DNA of 23,088 nucleotides from a virus, in IMG/VR virus record IMGVR_UViG_3300023279_000560, positions 1 through 23,088 of that record, one strand, 5' to 3'. Under the pieces are notes generated by a model. It searched no databases. It saw nothing but the letters and a program-made list of their open reading frames with translations, and was not told where the DNA came from. Positions 5,614-23,088 of the stretch are shown here, in pieces. The position numbers were made by a program, and so were the translations under genes. Positions within the stretch are counted from its first letter, which is position 1, and each line of letters starts with the position of its first letter.

Positions 5614-5652
5614 AAAAATTAGAGGGGTATCTAAATTAATAGATACCCCTCT
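5613..5652 (-). terminator. rho-independent terminator-like hairpin between SSB and nuclease
   Basis: A perfect 13-bp inverted repeat, AGAGGGGTATCTA (5621-5633) with TAGATACCCCTCT (5640-5652) and a 6-nt loop. On the minus strand it is followed by AATTTTT and then at once by the nuclease ATG. This would end most SSB transcripts or limit read-through into the nuclease gene. Confidence 0.72.
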
Positions 5653-6232: not shown

Positions 6233-6261
6233 ATTATAACATGTGGTATCTTATAAGTCAA
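6233..6261 (-). promoter_or_regulatory. sigma70-type promoter of the SSB gene
   Basis: TTGACT (6261-6256) and a perfect TATAAT (6238-6233) are separated by 17 nt on the minus strand. The predicted start near 6226 gives a leader of about 55 nt. The -35 box overlaps the stop codon of the upstream nuclease gene. This is the best promoter match in the window. Confidence 0.85.
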
Positions 6262-6992: not shown

Positions 6993-7021
6993 ATGGTACT
7001 ACAAGCAAGCAGGGATGTCAA
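6993..7021 (-). promoter_or_regulatory. sigma70-type promoter of the HTH/nuclease unit
   Basis: A perfect TTGACA (7021-7016) followed after 17 nt by TACCAT (6998-6993). The predicted start near 6986 leaves about 22 nt to the ATG at 6964. The -35 box is 1 nt from the edge of the family 1 element at 7023-7073. Confidence 0.6.
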
Positions 7022-7022
7022 C

Positions 7023-7073
7023 CTAATAAGTAACTACTGCTTACGTAGTAAGCTAAGTAGTAGTTACTATTAG
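7023..7073. repeat. family 1 structured 51-nt element, copy 1
   Basis: Outer arms 7023-7038 and 7059-7073 pair fully except for one bulged A (7028/7029). The inner hairpin is GCTTAC-GTA-GTAAGC (7039-7053) and the constant bulge TAAGT is 7054-7058. The polA stop codon (7070-7072) lies in the right arm. No T-run follows on either strand, so it is not a standard terminator. Confidence 0.92.
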
Positions 7074-8701
7074 TGGGTCTCTGCCCATGTCTTGCCTACT
7101 TTATATTGCGAGTCAAGTGGACACACAACAGATAGGTTACGAGACGTATTTAAGATAGCCTCTTTAGTTATTCTACAGAAATTAAGAGTATCTTTTACAC
7201 TAACTTCAAACTGATACTCATCGTGAATAGATGCAACAAGTTTAGCATCTACTCCTCTTTCATTTATTATCCTAGTTATTTGAACTAACCATTCTTTACA
7301 AATGATTGCTCCTGCACCTTGCAGTAAAGTATTTAGTGCAGCATGTTCTGATCTAATTTTTAGATGTCTACCATCCAAACCTAAGATAGAACCTGTTGTT
7401 GCAGCCTCAGTAACTTGGTTGCGTAGTCTTTTAAGGGCTGGCATATTACCTAAGAACCTTTCTATAAGTTCTCTTCCCTGTGCAGACCCGCCACCAACAA
7501 CCTTACCAATCTTGGCAGCACCAGCACCATATAAAAATGCGTAGATAAATGTCTTTGCTTGGTCTCTATTGGTTAGCCCTGCCATCTTCATGTTGGCTGT
7601 ATGTACGTCACCATTTACTACTTCATTAATGTACGCTTTGTCTTGCATGTAATGTGCAAGACAGCGTAGCTCTAATCCAGAAGCATCTGTACCTATTAGA
7701 TTGTACTTTTCTGGATCAGAGATAGTCCACAGCGATCTAAACTCTTTGCCATAAGGACTGTAAGAAGCAGGAACTTGAGCCATGTTAGGACTGTTGTGAG
7801 CCATACGGCCCGTCACAGTTTTGAGCGTCATTACCCTGCCTCTAACCTTCTCGTCGTCGTGGCACTCTTTGATCCACGACTTTAACATTCCTGTACGCTT
7901 CTGTAGCAAAAAGAACCTACTAAACATCTGAGCTTCAGGCATTTTGATATGGCTTAATGTTTCTTCATTAACAATAATATTGCCTTTGTCTGTGTGATGT
8001 TTAGGTTCCCAACCTTTCTCCATCAGTCTTTCTGCAATCTGTTTACGTGAAGCTATGTTAAATGGAATGTACTTTACTTTTGTTTTTAGTTGTAACTCTT
8101 TTGGTGGAAACATCTCAGTAGCTTTAGCAATCAAGATATCCTCTTCCTCTTGCAACTCAGACAGTAACAGCATGGCACCACGAAGGTTAAGTGTGAAGCC
8201 ATTCTTTTCCTGCTGATCTACAATTGCACGTACACAGTTCTCTAGTCTTTTACTTTTACTAGAAAACTTAGCACCTTCTTTATCAAGATACTGTGCAACC
8301 TTATGTGTAAGCCTAACGTCCTGCTTACAGTACTCTAGCATTTCAGGTGTGTAGTATTCAAACTCCTGAAACTCTATCTTTGCAAACTCCAGTTGCTCAC
8401 CCCATGCTTTGAGGGAGTGACCGCCTTCTCTGATTGGGTTATACAACTGAGATTCAATGAGGGTGTCACGGATTTGACGTAGCTGTATTGTAGAACCTGT
8501 TAGTCTGTTCAAGACAGGTGCATCAAAGCTAATGCCATTGTGCATTATAAATTGTTCTACATTCTTAGACCACGCTGCAAACTCGCGACACTCCTCACCT
8601 ACCCACGACCACTCAGTACCGTTGTCATAGTCTCTGGCTACGATGCAGTGGATAACTGTAGCATCAATAGCATCTGTTTCAATATCTACAATAGCTTTCA
8701 T
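7070..8701 (-). CDS. polA: family A DNA polymerase with 3'-5' exonuclease
   Basis: A 543-residue replicative polymerase. The exonuclease domain has D6/E8 (VDIETD), HNGISFD (54-60) and YCKQD (124-128). The polymerase domain has TVTGRMAHNSPN, motif A with D339 (GTDASGLELR), motif B R379-K383-Y387-Y391 (RDQAKTFIYAFLYG) and motif C HDE (493-495). Tyr387 aligns with E. coli Pol I Phe762 and T7 Tyr526, so this is a Tyr-type polymerase, which in aquatic phages goes with virulent replication. No 5'-3' exonuclease domain is present. It follows the primase-helicase gene by 2 nt and ends inside a structured repeat. Confidence 0.96.
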   Translation of the reverse strand: MKAIVDIETDAIDATVIHCIVARDYDNGTEWSWVGEECREFAAWSKNVEQFIMHNGISFDAPVLNRLTGSTIQLRQIRDTLIESQLYNPIREGGHSLKAWGEQLEFAKIEFQEFEYYTPEMLEYCKQDVRLTHKVAQYLDKEGAKFSSKSKRLENCVRAIVDQQEKNGFTLNLRGAMLLLSELQEEEDILIAKATEMFPPKELQLKTKVKYIPFNIASRKQIAERLMEKGWEPKHHTDKGNIIVNEETLSHIKMPEAQMFSRFFLLQKRTGMLKSWIKECHDDEKVRGRVMTLKTVTGRMAHNSPNMAQVPASYSPYGKEFRSLWTISDPEKYNLIGTDASGLELRCLAHYMQDKAYINEVVNGDVHTANMKMAGLTNRDQAKTFIYAFLYGAGAAKIGKVVGGGSAQGRELIERFLGNMPALKRLRNQVTEAATTGSILGLDGRHLKIRSEHAALNTLLQGAGAIICKEWLVQITRIINERGVDAKLVASIHDEYQFEVSVKDTLNFCRITKEAILNTSRNLSVVCPLDSQYKVGKTWAETH

Positions 8702-14753: not shown

Positions 14754-14773
14754 TTCGGTCTCCGTTGTGTTAG

Positions 14774-14824
14774 CTATTAACTCACTACTGCTTACGTAGT
14801 AAGCTAAGTAGTAGTGAGTAATAG
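14774..14824. repeat. family 1 structured 51-nt element, copy 2
   Basis: Arms 14774-14789 and 14810-14824 pair with one bulged A; the inner hairpin GCTTAC-GTA-GTAAGC is 14790-14804 and the TAAGT bulge 14805-14809. The arm stem is CTCACTACT/AGTAGTGAG, where copy 1 has GTAACTACT/AGTAGTTAC, so the differences are compensated. It lies 2 nt from the tRNA-Arg CCA end. Confidence 0.92.
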
Positions 14825-14826
14825 GG

Positions 14827-14903
14827 TGGCCTCCACAGTAGGACTCGAACCTACAACCTACAGCTTAGAAGGCTGTCGCTCTATCCAGTTGAGCTATGTG
14901 GAG
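14827..14903 (-). tRNA. tRNA-Arg (anticodon UCU)
   Basis: A 77-nt cloverleaf on the minus strand, with acceptor CTCCACA/TGTGGAG, D stem GCTC/GAGC, anticodon stem ACAGC/GCTGT around loop CTTCTAA (anticodon TCT), T arm GTAGG-TTCGAGT-CCTAC, discriminator G and an encoded CCA. It reads AGA codons, which AT-rich phages use more than many hosts. Confidence 0.95.
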
Positions 14904-17506: not shown

Positions 17507-18124
17507 TTATACCCTTTCGATTGTCTGCTGGATTCCCATGATAGCATTGCTATGCAACCAAGATACATCATCACCAGATTTGAAGTGCTTCGGATACTTA
17601 TCCGCAACTAAGTTGCACCAGTTGTTCCACAACAATTCACTGCCACCAATTTCGTTACACAATGCTAAATACTTTCGTGCTTTGTTAAAGTTAGGAATAG
17701 AAAACTCTCCATTCATTTTGAACGTGTTTTCATTTACACCATACATCTTTAGGTTGTGGCAGTCAAGGCATCCTGCCTCACCAGTAGTGAGTTGCATAAT
17801 AAAGCCTGCCTTCACCAAGCCAACGCAAGGAATACGCTGCAACTTTAGCAGCAATTCTTCTGCATAAATATCCCCTGCTTTATAACTTTGTATTAAATCA
17901 TAGAGCCAAGTTGAATTTTTCAATACAAACTTGATACCCTTTTTCTGCGTAGGCATTAGAGTATTAAACGCTTTCAACCCCTTATCACGATAGTTATCCA
18001 TCATGTCTGGCAATAGCCAAGTGAAAGTCCGTATGCTTGCAATAACAAAAGTTGCTGACATAGCGGTTTGGGTTGTGCCAAGATCGGCATATTTCTGGAT
18101 CATTAGATTGTCGCGGTTATACAT
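17507..18124 (-). CDS. helix-hairpin-helix-like phage protein, unknown function
   Basis: 205 residues. The centre, LLLKLQRIPCVGLVKAGFIM followed by TTGEAGCLDCHNLKMYGV, resembles a helix-hairpin-helix (IPGxGxxKA) followed by a conserved CLDxHN block, as in some uncharacterised phage proteins. This would allow non-specific DNA contact, as in DNA glycosylases, but no catalytic residue set is evident. The ATG overlaps the stop of the zinc-ribbon gene upstream. Confidence 0.65.
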   Translation of the reverse strand: MYNRDNLMIQKYADLGTTQTAMSATFVIASIRTFTWLLPDMMDNYRDKGLKAFNTLMPTQKKGIKFVLKNSTWLYDLIQSYKAGDIYAEELLLKLQRIPCVGLVKAGFIMQLTTGEAGCLDCHNLKMYGVNENTFKMNGEFSIPNFNKARKYLALCNEIGGSELLWNNWCNLVADKYPKHFKSGDDVSWLHSNAIMGIQQTIERV

Positions 18125-18291
18125 TAGCTTTTCCTTGTTTCAATTACGATAGAAGCGACGTACTCAGACTTCGATCTAGCTGATCGCTTCGCATCTTTCA
18201 TATAGCATGGCGCACACAATAGCAAGCCGCTATCTTTTACTTTTGCAGCGTCACCACACTGGTCACACTTTGGAAGTCTGGAATCATACAT
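18124..18291 (-). CDS. small zinc-ribbon protein
   Basis: 55 residues, MYDSRLPKCDQCGDAAKVKD, then GLLLCAPCYMKDAKRSARSK. Two CxxC pairs 13 residues apart form a probable zinc site; the tail is basic. TTGGAG lies upstream of the ATG with long spacing. The stop overlaps the next start (TAATG). It is the first gene downstream of the alternating element array. Confidence 0.66.
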   Translation of the reverse strand: MYDSRLPKCDQCGDAAKVKDSGLLLCAPCYMKDAKRSARSKSEYVASIVIETRKS

Positions 18292-18327: not shown

Positions 18328-18450
18328 TTACCAGCGGACCACGAAGGTGCCGTCGTCATTCAACTTGATTACGGGACGGCAACACGGGGACCACAAAGAG
18401 ATGGCGAAGTCATAAGCGGCCCAATAGTCCTCAAACTTTCTGCGGGTCAT
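18328..18450 (-). CDS. tiny protein of unknown function
   Basis: 40 residues from MTRRKFEDYWAAYDFAISLW. A longer frame reading back through the family 2 element is rejected because AAAGAAAGAATAGCT lies before this ATG. Trp- and Cys-containing (LWSPCCRPVIKLNDDGTFVV). Last of the four single genes separated by alternating elements. No domain recognised. Confidence 0.55.
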   Translation of the reverse strand: MTRRKFEDYWAAYDFAISLWSPCCRPVIKLNDDGTFVVRW

Positions 18451-18484
18451 AGCTATTCTTTCTTTTAGTTTCTTGTTAAAGATA

Positions 18485-18538
18485 TAAATACTTAGCACAA
18501 AGTATAGCCAACTAGCTATACTCTGCACAAAGTATTTA
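18485..18538. repeat. family 2 structured element, copy A
   Basis: A 9-bp outer stem TAAATACTT (18485-18493)/AAGTATTTA (18530-18538) and an 8-bp inner stem AGTATAGC (18501-18508)/GCTATACT (18515-18522) enclose a symmetric 7x7 internal loop containing GCACA on both sides. The right arm includes the stop codon of the gene at 18536-18820. GTTAAAGATA flanks it, as in copy B. Confidence 0.85.
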
Positions 18539-18820
18539 GTGGGAAGGCCACTGCGATAGCTTTGTAGCAGTTGCTACCGCTTCCACAACTTCTGGCTTCA
18601 CTACTTCCTTCTGCTTCGCAGCTTCCCGATCTGCCGCTGCTTTGCTAAAGCCAACTGGCTTGCCTTCTGGCAACTTATCAGCGTTCTTGATGACTCTGAA
18701 AGAGCCATTGTCGAACTCGATCCGAATAGGCTTACCAGCCTTTTCAGCTTCCTTGAAAGCCTCTCGGCTTGTCAGGGCTACCCAGTTTTTACCTGCAAAT
18801 GCTTTGAATGTCTTACTCAT
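18536..18820 (-). CDS. small protein of unknown function
   Basis: 94 residues from MSKTFKAFAGKNWVALTSRE, with GGGAGTACAGACT before this ATG. The first half looks like a small beta domain (PIRIEFDNGSFRVIKNADKL); the second half is a charged, alanine-rich helix (AAADREAAKQKEVVKPEVVE). It lies between a family 1 element and a family 2 element. No domain recognised. Confidence 0.65.
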   Translation of the reverse strand: MSKTFKAFAGKNWVALTSREAFKEAEKAGKPIRIEFDNGSFRVIKNADKLPEGKPVGFSKAAADREAAKQKEVVKPEVVEAVATATKLSQWPSH

Positions 18821-18865
18821 AGTCTGTACTCCCAGTTGTGAGGCCAAGCCTCGGTTTGTGGTACT

Positions 18866-18916
18866 TAATTAACCAACTACTGCTTACGTAGTAAGCTAAG
18901 TAGTAGTTGGTAATTA
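18866..18916. repeat. family 1 structured 51-nt element, copy 3
   Basis: Arms 18866-18881 and 18902-18916 with one bulged A; inner GCTTAC-GTA-GTAAGC 18882-18896; TAAGT bulge 18897-18901. Identical over the whole 51 nt to copy 4. The right arm contains the stop codon of the gene at 18914-19111. Confidence 0.93.
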
Positions 18917-19111
18917 GCTGTTGGCAATTCGCTTCATCACTTTGGCATGGCGGCGTTGTTCTCTAGCTTGCCGTTCAATCTTTAAATTGATGCTTCGGGT
19001 GTTGTTTTTATTTTTCATTAGTTCGCTGGTAATGCTAATGCTAAAGCAAACCATAGCGGCTAGGGTTAGTACACCAACAATGCCAAAGGCAAGTAAAAAT
19101 CCGTCTTCCAT
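18914..19111 (-). CDS. small single-span membrane protein with basic tail
   Basis: 65 residues. An N-terminal membrane segment (LLAFGIVGVLTLAAMVCFSI, about residues 6-25) follows an acidic start (MEDG) and precedes a long basic helix (ERQAREQRRHAKVMKRIANS). The tail should face the cytoplasm. CGGAGATTAAAA precedes the ATG. It could be a host-membrane-directed early protein or a holin-like protein; nothing decides this. It is bounded by a family 2 and a family 1 element. Confidence 0.65.
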   Translation of the reverse strand: MEDGFLLAFGIVGVLTLAAMVCFSISITSELMKNKNNTRSINLKIERQAREQRRHAKVMKRIANS

Positions 19112-19140
19112 TTTTAATCTCCGATTAACTGTTAAAGATA

Positions 19141-19193
19141 TAAATACTCAGCACAAGACATAGCAACTAGCTATGCCTTGCACAAAGTATTTA
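19141..19193. repeat. family 2 structured element, copy B
   Basis: Outer stem TAAATACT (19141-19148)/AGTATTTA (19186-19193), inner stem CATAGC (19159-19164)/GCTATG (19170-19175), symmetric 10x10 internal loop with GCACAA on both sides. Relative to copy A, a T-A pair of the inner stem is replaced by C-G. The right arm includes the stop codon of the gene at 19191-19382. Confidence 0.83.
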
Positions 19194-19382
19194 CAGGTCT
19201 GCCCAATCTCCAGCATTTTGCTGTATAAACCTGTCCACTTCTTCAAAGTGGATACAAGTTACAAACTCTCCACTTGGAGAGTGAATATCGATAAAGCCCT
19301 TGAATGGACCAGCTACGCTGACAAACGCTTGAAAATCTGTGGCACATTCGATGTCTCGAGTTAGTTGCTGAACTATGTTCAT
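19191..19382 (-). CDS. first leftward gene, small protein of unknown function
   Basis: 63 residues from MNIVQQLTRDIECATDFQAF, chosen because TTGGAGATTGAC lies directly before it. It is acidic with the block GFIDIHSPSGEFVTCIHFEE, a probable small alpha-beta fold. As the promoter-proximal gene of the leftward operon it is likely expressed early. It is bounded by family 1 copy 4 upstream and family 2 copy B downstream. No domain recognised. Confidence 0.63.
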   Translation of the reverse strand: MNIVQQLTRDIECATDFQAFVSVAGPFKGFIDIHSPSGEFVTCIHFEEVDRFIQQNAGDWADL

Positions 19383-19401
19383 GTCAATCTCCAAGTTGTA
19401 T

Positions 19402-19452
19402 TAATTAACCAACTACTGCTTACGTAGTAAGCTAAGTAGTAGTTGGTAATTA
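19402..19452. repeat. family 1 structured 51-nt element, copy 4
   Basis: Arms 19402-19417 and 19438-19452 with one bulged A; inner GCTTAC-GTA-GTAAGC 19418-19432; TAAGT bulge 19433-19437. Identical to copy 3, 536 nt away. It is 19 nt upstream of the first leftward gene. Confidence 0.93.
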
Positions 19453-19525
19453 GCCTCATCCTGCCACTCATCAAACGGCTTGTCAAGCTACGCTTGGTTC
19501 ATCGTTTGACAAAGCAACGCTTTGT

Positions 19526-19534
19526 TGTGGATAA
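19526..19534 (-). promoter_or_regulatory. perfect DnaA-box 9-mer
   Basis: TTATCCACA on the minus strand, identical to the E. coli consensus DnaA box, lying between two hairpins of the array. It is a single copy, so binding by host DnaA is only suggested. Confidence 0.5.
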
Positions 19535-19667
19535 CCTGTAAAACTCTTAGAGTTTTCAAAGCTTTAGGCTAAAGCCTAGACTTGCTACAGAGTAGCAGAT
19601 TATGCCACCTTACCCATCCTTCGGATGATTTGGAAAGGGTTGGGTCGATTTCGGCAGCAGCTAGTTA

Positions 19668-19718
19668 TGAATTACCCTCTACTGCTTCCAAAGGAAGCTA
19701 AGTAGTAGAGGGTATTCA
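19668..19718. repeat. family 1 structured 51-nt element, copy 5 (divergent)
   Basis: Same architecture: arms 19668-19683 and 19704-19718 with one bulged T, inner GCTTCC-AAA-GGAAGC (19684-19698), TAAGT bulge 19699-19703. Both the outer arms (TACCCTCTACT/AGTAGAGGGTA) and the inner stem differ from the other copies but are fully complementary. Confidence 0.9.
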
Positions 19719-19827
19719 AAGTAGTCTACACTTGTAGACTAAAGTCGAAAAATTGCTGCAAAAAAGGTATCTGTTAGATCGCTTTTGTAAATCTTGGAAA
19801 GATTTTATCGCAGGGGTACGCGCAAAA

Positions 19828-20015: not shown

Positions 20016-21554
20016 ATGTTAAACATTGAAGAAAATTTTCTAGACTCCTACATTAATCTCCAAACCTTGTTGTCTGAGCATGTAAACCTTTCTGCTCATA
20101 CAGATTTCCTTACATTTGTACGTCTTGTAGCTCCAAGTCTTGTGTCTGGTTGGAAGATGGGTAGGCATATTGAGTTGATATCAAATAAACTAAAGGATTT
20201 GGAAGAAGGAAAGATAAAAAGACTAATGGTCTTCCTTCCTCCACGTTCATCTAAGTCTGTTATTTGCTCAAAGTTGTTTCCAGCATGGTATATTGGTAGG
20301 AATCCAGAGCATGAGATACTGACTGTCTCCCATAGTGACCAGCTATCTAGCGATTTCGGGCGATCTGTGCGAGATGTAGTCAATACTGAAGAGTTTTCTA
20401 AAATATTTCCAGGAGTTGCGCTACGAAGTGACGTTCGTGCAGCGGGTAAATGGAAAACTACGCAGAATGGTACGTATTATGCGGCGGGTGTGCGGTCACA
20501 AATTGCTGGACGAGGCGCACACATAGCAATTCTGGACGATGTGATGTCTGAAGAGGACTCATACTCGGATGCTGGTAGAAGATATATCAAAGAGTGGTAT
20601 CCTGCTGGCCTACGTACCCGTATTATGCCCAACGGTGCGATTGTTATTATTAATACGCGCTATCATTATGATGATCTTTGCGGATGGCTGCTACGACAGC
20701 AGGAAGACATGGGTGACTACGAAACTATTCCGTGGGAAGTGATTAGGATTCCTGCATGGCTGGATGAAGAAGCAGCAGAATTGTTAGATATGCCCAAGGG
20801 TGGTTGCTATTTTCCAGAATGGAAGTCCGACGACTTGTTACGTATTGATGAGAATGAGATCAAGGCTAGTAATGGTAGTCGATACTGGAACGCACTGTAC
20901 ATGCAAGACCCTACTCCAGAAGAAGGTGGTCTGATAAAGAAAAAGTGGATACAGGAATGGGAGTACGATGAGCCGCCTACTTGTGAGTTTGTTATTCAAA
21001 CAATGGATACAGCTTTCTCTACACGCAACACGGCTGACTATAGTGTTATTCAGACATGGGGCATATTCTACATGTATGACCAAGATGAAGATGGAATAGA
21101 GAACTATGCTTCTAACTTAATCTTGCTTGGTAATGTAAAGGGTAGGTATGAATACCCAGAGCTACGAAGGATTGCACAGAAACTATACAATGAATACAGA
21201 CCTGATGTCTGTATGATTGAAAAGAAAGCCAGTGGTCAGTCTTTGATTCAGGACTTACGCAGATCAGGGTTACCTATTCTAGAGTATTTGCCAGATCGTG
21301 ATAAGGTATCCAGAGTTTACTCAGCTACGCCCATTATGGAAGCAGGGCGGCTATGGCTACCTAGCTCTAAGAAATGGGCAGATGATCTAGTGGAAGAGTT
21401 AATACGTTTTCCCAACTCAGCCCATGATGACCAAGTAGATGCGCTAACTATGGCAGTGCATTATATGCGGGACTCATGGAACCTTGCACATCCTGACGAT
21501 CCAGATTGGGATGAGCCAGTTAGAGAAAAGAAAGCAACCTATTGGACATTCTAA
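20016..21554 (+). CDS. terL: terminase large subunit
   Basis: A 512-residue packaging motor. The ATPase domain has a Walker A-like LPPRSSKS (74-81), Walker B HIAILDDVMSEED (169-181) and a coupling motif in NTRYHYDD (213-220). The C-terminal RNase H-like nuclease has D331 (TMDTAFS), E402 (MIEKKASGQS) and D471/D472 (SAHDDQVDAL). It translocates and cuts concatemeric DNA into the prohead. It is the first gene of the rightward transcript. No terminase small subunit precedes it. No Shine-Dalgarno sequence precedes the ATG, and an alternative start before the ATPase domain would be Met48. Confidence 0.96.
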   Translation: MLNIEENFLDSYINLQTLLSEHVNLSAHTDFLTFVRLVAPSLVSGWKMGRHIELISNKLKDLEEGKIKRLMVFLPPRSSKSVICSKLFPAWYIGRNPEHEILTVSHSDQLSSDFGRSVRDVVNTEEFSKIFPGVALRSDVRAAGKWKTTQNGTYYAAGVRSQIAGRGAHIAILDDVMSEEDSYSDAGRRYIKEWYPAGLRTRIMPNGAIVIINTRYHYDDLCGWLLRQQEDMGDYETIPWEVIRIPAWLDEEAAELLDMPKGGCYFPEWKSDDLLRIDENEIKASNGSRYWNALYMQDPTPEEGGLIKKKWIQEWEYDEPPTCEFVIQTMDTAFSTRNTADYSVIQTWGIFYMYDQDEDGIENYASNLILLGNVKGRYEYPELRRIAQKLYNEYRPDVCMIEKKASGQSLIQDLRRSGLPILEYLPDRDKVSRVYSATPIMEAGRLWLPSSKKWADDLVEELIRFPNSAHDDQVDALTMAVHYMRDSWNLAHPDDPDWDEPVREKKATYWTF

Positions 21555-21595: not shown

Positions 21596-23088
21596 ATGTC
21601 TTTATTTGATTACGCATCAGAAAAACTAATCAATGAATTAGAAAAAAATAAATCACCTATGCTTACTATTAGCATGGGAAGGGAACCTGTTATGCCTATG
21701 GCACAAGGAGGTGGTCTATCTACTGTTCAGAATAGTCTGAACATTAATGGTGAGCCGCACAGGCTGGCCTATATCAATCCTAGTGAAAAAAATTTGTTAC
21801 AACAACTTGGAGGTAGTGGTAGAAAGATTGACGGTATCCCAGCTTATTATGCGGGACATGGCGCTGCCGAAGGTACTTCAGAAGAAGGAGCAGTCGGACC
21901 TGGCGAAGACTCAGGAACAGGAGATGGTCCTGGTGCTGGTGGCGACACTGGTGGCGACACTGGTGGCAATCCTGATACATTTGATGTTCCTAGTTTAGAC
22001 CCTCCTGCTCCAAATCCTGATACATTTGATATTGACTCTTTTCCTGATCTAGACGTTCCTGCTCAAAATCCTGATATATTTGATCCTAAGCCTTTTCCTG
22101 ATCTAAACCGTACTCCGTATGCGGACCTGAATATGAAAAATAAAGATCCTAAATCAAGAAGTTTTATTGACAATATTAATCCTGTTACTCTTCTCTTTTC
22201 TCCTCTAGCAACACTTGCCAAAGCTACTGTTACGACAGCAGTAAACAATAATTTTGGTATGGACCCAATGGGTGTAGACCCCAATGTTGGACACGCTCCG
22301 AGTGAGGACGACGACGATGATGGCACCGATGCTGGCGGCGACGACGCTGCTGACTACATTATTAAAGAAAAAATTGCAGCAGTTAAACAAATCCCTGTTA
22401 AAGAAGTAACAGTAGAAGAAGTTCAACGAGCTAAAAGGCTAACGGCTGCACAGCGAGTAGCTGGCACACGACTTGAAGATATACTAGATGATATTTATGG
22501 TAGCGGCCAAGGCAGTAATCTTTTGTCTTTAGCACAGTCTGGTGGTGGTATAGCAAGCTTACAAAAAAATATAAATATTAACGGCCAGCCACATCAGCTA
22601 TCTTATATTAATCCTAGTGAAGAAAATTTGTTAAAACAGCTTGGTGGTAGCGGTGAAAAAATTAATGGTATTCCAGCTTATATGATGGGAGGAGCCAATG
22701 GCGATCATGGCTATGGCGAGGCTCCTGGCGGCGATGATTCTACTTCTACGGACGATGCTGCTGCTGGTGCCAGTGCTTCTGGTGGCGGTGACCAAGCTGG
22801 TGGTGATGACGCTCCACCTGAACCTGAACCAGTTGTTGCTCCTAAAGCGCCAGAAGTTATTATTCCTAAAGTTGAAGAACCTGAACCACCAAAACAACCT
22901 AGAACTGTAAATACAAATTTAGCAGATATTCTTCAAGCTACTTATCCTAATTTATCTAGACCAGTAATTAGAGGTATGTTGGGCGGTGAAACAGTAGAAG
23001 AAGATAACGAAGAAGACTTAGAAGAAGATTTTAAAACAGATGAAAAAATTATAAGTCTTTTGAAAAAAGAAGGAAATCCTTTTCCTAC
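21596..23088 (+). CDS. repeat-containing phage protein, unknown function (partial, C-terminus outside window)
   Basis: At least 497 residues in one open frame to the right edge, starting MSLFDYASEKLINELEKNKS after AGGAAAGGGAACTCA. Two copies of a roughly 51-residue domain (residues 39-89 and 317-367, 33 identical positions) share NING-PH-L-YINPSE-NLL-QLGGSG-KI-GIPAY. Each copy is followed by a Gly/Asp-rich linker (DTGGDTGG; GGDDSTSTDD). Between them are NPDTFD/NPDIFD repeats, a hydrophobic stretch (VTLLFSPLATLAKATV, about 197-212) and charged helices; Pro/Glu-rich and very acidic parts follow the second copy. I recall the YINPxE-LL-LGGSG-GIPAY motif from uncultured marine phage proteins without a known role. 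Its position after terL suggests a virion or portal-associated protein. It is translated from its own promoter. Confidence 0.75.
   Translation, partial: MSLFDYASEKLINELEKNKSPMLTISMGREPVMPMAQGGGLSTVQNSLNINGEPHRLAYINPSEKNLLQQLGGSGRKIDGIPAYYAGHGAAEGTSEEGAVGPGEDSGTGDGPGAGGDTGGDTGGNPDTFDVPSLDPPAPNPDTFDIDSFPDLDVPAQNPDIFDPKPFPDLNRTPYADLNMKNKDPKSRSFIDNINPVTLLFSPLATLAKATVTTAVNNNFGMDPMGVDPNVGHAPSEDDDDDGTDAGGDDAADYIIKEKIAAVKQIPVKEVTVEEVQRAKRLTAAQRVAGTRLEDILDDIYGSGQGSNLLSLAQSGGGIASLQKNININGQPHQLSYINPSEENLLKQLGGSGEKINGIPAYMMGGANGDHGYGEAPGGDDSTSTDDAAAGASASGGGDQAGGDDAPPEPEPVVAPKAPEVIIPKVEEPEPPKQPRTVNTNLADILQATYPNLSRPVIRGMLGGETVEEDNEEDLEEDFKTDEKIISLLKKEGNPFP
21710..21862 (+). repeat. protein domain repeat 1 (NING-PH...GIPAY)
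   Basis: Encodes residues 39-89 of the protein at 21596; the second copy is at 22544-22696. At protein level 33 of 51 positions are identical, while the DNA has diverged more, suggesting an old duplication kept by selection. Confidence 0.85.
22544..22696 (+). repeat. protein domain repeat 2 (NING-PH...GIPAY)
   Basis: Encodes residues 317-367 of the same protein, the partner of the copy at 21710-21862. Both are preceded by a GGG and followed by a glycine/aspartate-rich linker. Confidence 0.85.

Follow-up and report, generated by a model that had tools for sequence, protein, structure and literature searches.

The window analysed here (the whole stretch of 23,088 nt, IMG/VR record IMGVR_UViG_3300023279_000560) represents a 23-kb piece of a tailed marine phage genome. 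The closest cultured relatives of this phage are pelagiphages, with 46% identity to HTVC115P for the DNA polymerase and 39% identity to HTVC023P for the terminase. The terminase gene is transcribed rightwards; the gene after it contains a 141-nt repeat (21707–21847 and 22541–22681, 74% identical), with Gly/Pro-rich repeats between the two copies. The leftward operon is dense and contains two tRNAs and, besides small genes, thyX and genes for a primase-helicase, a DNA polymerase, an ssDNA-binding/annealing protein, a Cas4-type nuclease and a ribonucleotide reductase. An array of small genes and hairpin elements of two families, F1 and F2, occupies the head of this operon, just downstream of the gap beside the divergent terminase gene. 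The operon opens with an F1 element (19667–19720), followed by a noncoding leader of 212 nt and then by the array, the genes of which are probably early genes, judging from their position. The main features are given below, where L numbers denote related phages.

20016–21554, + strand: terminase gene, rightward
19667–19720, − strand: F1, first element of the leftward transcript (covariance model R1, 70.4 bits; z −8.0)
19455–19666, − strand: noncoding leader between two F1 copies, about 212 nt (alignments)
19401–19454, − strand: F1 at the head of the array (R1, 71.7 bits; z −5.1)
19191–19382, − strand: gene A, 63 aa; in L008 it moves as the unit F1-A-F2
19130–19193, − strand: F2 copy B, carrying the gene A stop codon (hairpin 19141–19193, conserved tail to 19130)
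18914–19111, − strand: gene B, 65 aa, likely with one transmembrane segment
18865–18918, − strand: F1 between genes B and C, carrying the gene B stop codon (R1, 71.7 bits; z −5.1)
18536–18820, − strand: gene C, 94 aa, the most widespread gene in these arrays
18474–18538, − strand: F2 copy A, carrying the gene C stop codon (hairpin 18485–18538, tail to 18474)
18328–18450, − strand: gene D, 40 aa, missing at the corresponding place in L005–L008; no element behind it
18124–18291, − strand: gene E, 55 aa, Cys-rich; in relatives, the first gene downstream of the array
14773–14826, − strand: F1 directly after tRNA-Arg (14827–14903) (R1, 69.1 bits)
7022–7075, − strand: F1 with the DNA polymerase stop codon inside it (R1, 69.0 bits)
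6993–7021, − strand: sigma70-like promoter TTGACA-17-TACCAT, just downstream of the polymerase-gene F1

The minus-strand coordinates confirm the order proposed in an earlier sequence-only reading of this DNA, F1-A-F2-B-F1-C-F2-D, with one gene between elements. Three of the elements do indeed supply the stop codon of the preceding gene (TAA at 19193–19191, 18916–18914 and 18538–18536), and neighbouring genes elsewhere are tightly packed, as had been claimed: 29 of the 42 junctions in the leftward operon overlap or are no more than 20 nt apart. F1 has five copies in all, three of them, at 19667–19720, 14773–14826 and 7022–7075, in addition to the two between genes of the array or at its head. 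The two array copies of F1 (19401–19454 and 18865–18918) are identical across all 54 nt. When 854 background windows are ordered by folding energy, the array junctions take ranks 0, 6 and 0, and the gap between genes D and E folds at only −1.8 kcal/mol. The leader is conserved in close relatives and contains several small hairpins. A coding function was rejected for it, no reading frame being kept across relatives (checked by eye), and it would be freed as a small RNA if F1 is cut.

Structure and distribution of the elements

F1 is a 54-nt bulged hairpin with an outer stem mostly of 13–15 bp, a 5-nt bulge (ACUUA) on its 5′ side, an inner stem mostly of 6 bp and a small loop, making a total of 18–22 bp in 48 distinct elements. 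Double changes were found at 15 of the 20 pairs in 29 distinct copies, in which 90.8% of pair cells are standard, and the covariation score was 0.518, as against 0.140 for shuffled data and at most 0.175 when the structure was slid. F2, unrelated to F1 in sequence, forms a 23-bp hairpin that contains a single U-U mismatch; it is 100% paired, with two compensatory pairs in a small set of copies. Every element of the window folds far better than dinucleotide-shuffled versions of itself (z −4.7 to −8.4), none of 200 such versions per element being equally good. At the gathering score, Rfam yielded two tRNAs only in the window, leaving F1 and F2 without a family, and the best match to the array at a relaxed threshold (E 0.27) was far below the threshold and attributable to chance.

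The DNA pattern used to search for F1 favoured the conserved core, including the bulge. The bulge and the adjacent pairs appear invariant in the 29 aligned and 48 distinct elements, but absolute invariance cannot be claimed, because the pattern favoured these positions and the weaker covariance-model matches include a few bulge variants. The second F1 copy of L014, L018 and L027 has an enlarged loop containing TAAGTA, the complementarity of which to the ACTTA bulge makes a loop-bulge pairing or an alternative hairpin possible in these copies. A pseudoknot between the bulge and the 3′ flank was considered for F1 and rejected, because the complement UAAGU is present in some copies only. Unbulged hairpins, GTAACTCTA..CTACTACTTAGTAGTAG..TAGAGTTAC, surround the primase-polymerase genes of L173, L175, L176, L180, L196, L162 and L164 (polymerase 67–72% identical); their core, CTACTACTTAG, is common to F1, in a different structure.

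The pattern matched F1 in 41 stretches of viral contigs. These contigs were chosen by DNA alone, and yet the same terminase, at 72–79% identity or closer, is present in those examined that extend into the region. F1 lies on the strand opposite the terminase in 21 of the 21 contigs listed with F1 and at least a terminase fragment, mostly at the head of the leftward operon. A 57-kb relative has six F1 copies, all of which belong to the leftward operon; its late genes have none. Of 54 non-redundant F1 copies, 23 contain the stop codon of an ORF upstream. Among cultured phages, F1 was not found in the whole records of HTVC023P and HTVC115P or in the initial 50 kb of HTVC027P, HTVC104P and 023Pt_psg01. 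Matches to Staphylococcus phages in blastn were weak (E about 1) and were rejected, as was an origin from a bacterial host: the five pattern matches in bacterial genomes correspond to about the chance rate, and none folds as F1.

No terminator-like site (stem plus U-tract) was found on the minus strand at any array element, and a scan with a sigma70-type consensus detected no minus-strand promoter at any of them; only the polymerase-gene F1 is followed by one. Elsewhere in the leftward operon, strong terminator-like hairpins unrelated to F1 and F2 are present at 5621–5652 (terminator-like on both strands) and 1523–1554, and the top sigma70-like promoter of the leftward strand (TTGACT-17-TATAAT, extended −10) lies at 6233–6261, upstream of the ssDNA-binding protein gene.

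Reordering of gene-plus-hairpin units between relatives

The window and the fragment L004 share the order F1-A-F2-B-F1-C-F2, followed in the window by D and E. The order is F1-C-F2-B-F1-G-F1-F-F1-A-F2-E in L008, F1-A′-F1-B-F1-C-F2-E in L005, F1-A′-F1+F2-F-F1-G-F1-B-F1-C-F2-E in L006 and F1-H-F1-A′-F1-B-F1-C-F2-E in L007. Despite these differences, gene B is followed by F1 and gene C by F2 in five of five genomes (the window and L004 being counted as one), and a gene therefore moves together with its 3′ element. The strict alternation of the two families, which the sequence-only reading had emphasized, holds for the window phage and its near-copy L004 only. It is a by-product of gene content. 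The runs in other relatives are F1-F1-F1-F2, F1-F2-F1-F1-F1-F2, or F1 and F2 in tandem, and alternation is a local accident rather than a rule.

As far as the end of the second F1, the window shares 98.4% identity with L008; past this point, the blocks F1-A-F2, F2-B-F1 and F1-C-F2 are found at 91–97% identity in a different order, with seven of the eight homology-block edges at element ends. When the five genomes are compared in all pairs, 54 of the 116 edges coincide with elements, as against 26 expected, although the edges depend on one another and in many distant pairs the breaks lie away from elements. Close relatives thus differ in the order and presence of units, with the breaks located at elements, which directly supports the suggestion that these were exchangeable gene-plus-hairpin cassettes. 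Upstream of its terminase (93% identical), L067 (IMGVR_UViG_3300004280_000024) has one F2, no F1 and other small genes in place of A, B and C; its array seems to have been replaced as a block.

F1 can also be gained or lost alone. The F1 at the polymerase gene is present in seven phages, including that of the window, and cleanly absent from L146–L148, in which the polymerase is 97–98% identical and the flanks are about 94–96% identical; it is also absent from all the 88% relatives examined. With or without this element, the stop codon is intact and a sigma70-like promoter lies downstream. The outgroup pattern suggests that this F1 was gained in the window lineage. After tRNA-Arg, some relatives have a different hairpin at the same place.

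The same gene borders are marked by other hairpins in a sister clade (L080, L081 and L102–L110; terminase 76–79% identical). Homologues of genes A and C lie there behind F3 hairpins at the same positions, as does a gene F homologue in one genome. F3 is about 19–24 bp long and unrelated in sequence to F1 and F2; neither F2 nor F3 has the F1 bulge motif, and the families mainly share a length of about 20–23 bp. F3 hairpins have a conserved GA/GA internal loop (AGUA GA GUA..UAC GA UACU), which could form tandem G-A pairs, and their clade has a hairpin-leader-hairpin layout like that around the window leader. Block edges coincide with hairpins less cleanly in the F3 clade than in the window clade.

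A strong hairpin stands just upstream of all gene C (19 of 19) and gene A (15 of 15) homologues in the terminase-anchored loci, even where its sequence is unrelated, and so the situation in which relatives would carry the same genes with no conserved structure between them was not encountered. About half of the terminase relatives examined have none of F1, F2 and F3, and terminase-anchored loci of this kind have no detectable gene C. F1 requires four changes on the terminase tree, on which it is interleaved with F3 and element-free clades, and two related phages have both F1 and F3. What the gene borders retain is not a sequence but a hairpin about two helical turns long. That the hairpin is kept while its sequence changes argues for a primary role at the RNA level, with repeat-driven exchange as a consequence.

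Probable RNA processing and gene exchange

The RNase III signals of phage T7 are irregular in shape and about 20 bp long. The array elements, as candidate processing sites, are similarly irregular hairpins, with about two helical turns of double-stranded RNA in the sense transcript (F1 18–22, F2 23, F3 about 19–24 bp), and they are intergenic within one operon of probable early genes. The sequence and position of the bulge differ: that of F1 is on the 5′ side, which is not the arrangement known for T7 R1.1. The elements also differ from T7 signals in belonging to several unrelated families, in having copies that are sometimes identical within a genome and in the visible shuffling of genes. In T7, hairpins lie in the sense orientation between early genes on a single polycistronic transcript made by the host polymerase, and the five early sites give rise to mono- and dicistronic mRNAs (PMC4858673).

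The most economical model is T7-like. The host RNA polymerase would make a long leftward, probably early, RNA, and the hairpins would act as processing or end-forming sites between its genes, such that the polycistronic RNA would be cut or capped to single-gene messages, most likely by host RNase III. Exchange of units by homologous recombination is suggested because many small genes have the same element on either side and a genome can contain identical copies of it; recombination between copies would swap, reorder, gain and lose gene-plus-element units, possibly with the phage's own annealing protein (a PHROG match) acting on the repeated elements, and the outcome would be a cassette array of early genes. 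We lean towards this reading, in which T7-RNase III-type processing or end-forming hairpins permit, by their repetition, cassette swaps through homologous recombination: the hairpins probably cut or cap messages and double as joints for gene exchange. Processing is indirectly supported by the covariation, the constant orientation opposite the terminase, the location of copies directly behind a tRNA and at the stop codon of the polymerase gene, the nearly fixed length of 20–23 bp and the lack of a U-tract. The two ideas of the sequence-only reading, a processing array and cassettes, are both supported and are mutually compatible.

A bulge-reading factor is the main rival to RNase III, because the F1 core is unusually constant. 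The core (ACUUA bulge, GCUU/AAGC) is conserved beyond the needs of RNase III, which indicates a sequence-specific partner, with the reservation that the search pattern favours it. The ends of the mRNAs could be formed by a block to 3′-to-5′ exonucleases (protective 3′ stem-loops), or by another host or phage endonuclease or RNA-binding protein reading the bulge. The apparent invariance of the bulge and its adjacent pairs in the 29 aligned and 48 distinct elements would fit such a route, as would the lack of an RNase III gene in the 15 phage contigs searched and the position of the polymerase-gene F1 between a stop codon and a downstream promoter, as expected for a 3′ end. It nevertheless seems rather unlikely, given that F2 and F3 lack the motif at equivalent sites and have mainly their length in common with F1, that a dsRNA-specific nuclease reads such a length, and that the F1 search was biased to the conserved core.

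In integrons, each cassette is a single gene delimited by imperfect palindromes (attC sites) at its stop codon, and the order of cassettes varies between genomes. The array is similar in all three respects, and identical copies within one genome and the gain or loss of F1 without a gene would also suit an integron-like or REP-like exchange site, with a main role in moving genes and a structure required in folded single-stranded DNA. However, tyrosine integrase (PF00589) is absent from the 15 contigs, some of them fragments, and Y1 transposase was not found in them, making site-specific recombination unlikely; the positive controls matched (14 of 14 for the integrase). There is no integron platform, and no partner enzyme is known for exchange at the DNA level. 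The orientation and position of the elements follow transcription instead: orientation relative to the terminase never varies, copies also stand behind the tRNA and polymerase genes, and sister phages have unrelated hairpin sequences at the same sites. Such a DNA-level role is, therefore, improbable.

Antitermination or pause elements (put-like RNA), recognized by host RNA polymerase as it enters the leftward operon, would explain why the first element is in the divergent region, some 300 nt from the start of the terminase gene, and why copies recur early in the operon, but this seems highly implausible given that copies also follow the tRNA and polymerase genes, that most are at stop codons rather than near promoters, and that there are up to six of them, with F1 replaceable by unrelated hairpins.

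The PeSL of phage T4 is reportedly a repeated intergenic stem-loop between small early genes that mediates modular shuffling, and is said to carry an early promoter as its defining feature. The array elements resemble it as repeated stem-loops where small genes shuffle, and differ in having no promoter in the sigma70-type scan, in carrying stop codons and in forming several families. T4 PeSLs are cited as mobile regulatory cassettes in PMC4177764. On this comparison, the elements appear to resemble both T7 processing signals and PeSL cassettes and are assigned to neither. Mimivirus, a eukaryotic virus with polyadenylation, has transcripts ending at hairpin-forming palindromes cut by a virus-coded enzyme, according to PMC4402537; these phage contigs differ in the lack of an RNase III gene in the 15 searched.

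Early phage genes are the usual seat of takeover and counter-defence functions, and how they can be rearranged without breaking expression is a standing question. The unit (a gene plus its 3′ hairpin), the joints, the reordering between phages that are near-identical next door and the gain and loss of lone elements are all visible here. It is conceivable, and we propose it tentatively, that this marine phage lineage runs an RNA-level cassette platform, in which a dedicated RNA element, its five-base bulge nearly invariant and recognized by a particular factor of the phage or the host, would separate early genes, and the benefit of identical flanks would be that genes could be plugged in, reordered or dropped without disturbing expression, with unrelated hairpins taking the place of whole element families in the course of evolution. 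As an RNA family, F1 covaries and is new to Rfam, and its replacement, site for site, by unrelated hairpins of about equal length means that the selected trait, be it length, structure or a bulge-reading factor, can be tested directly.
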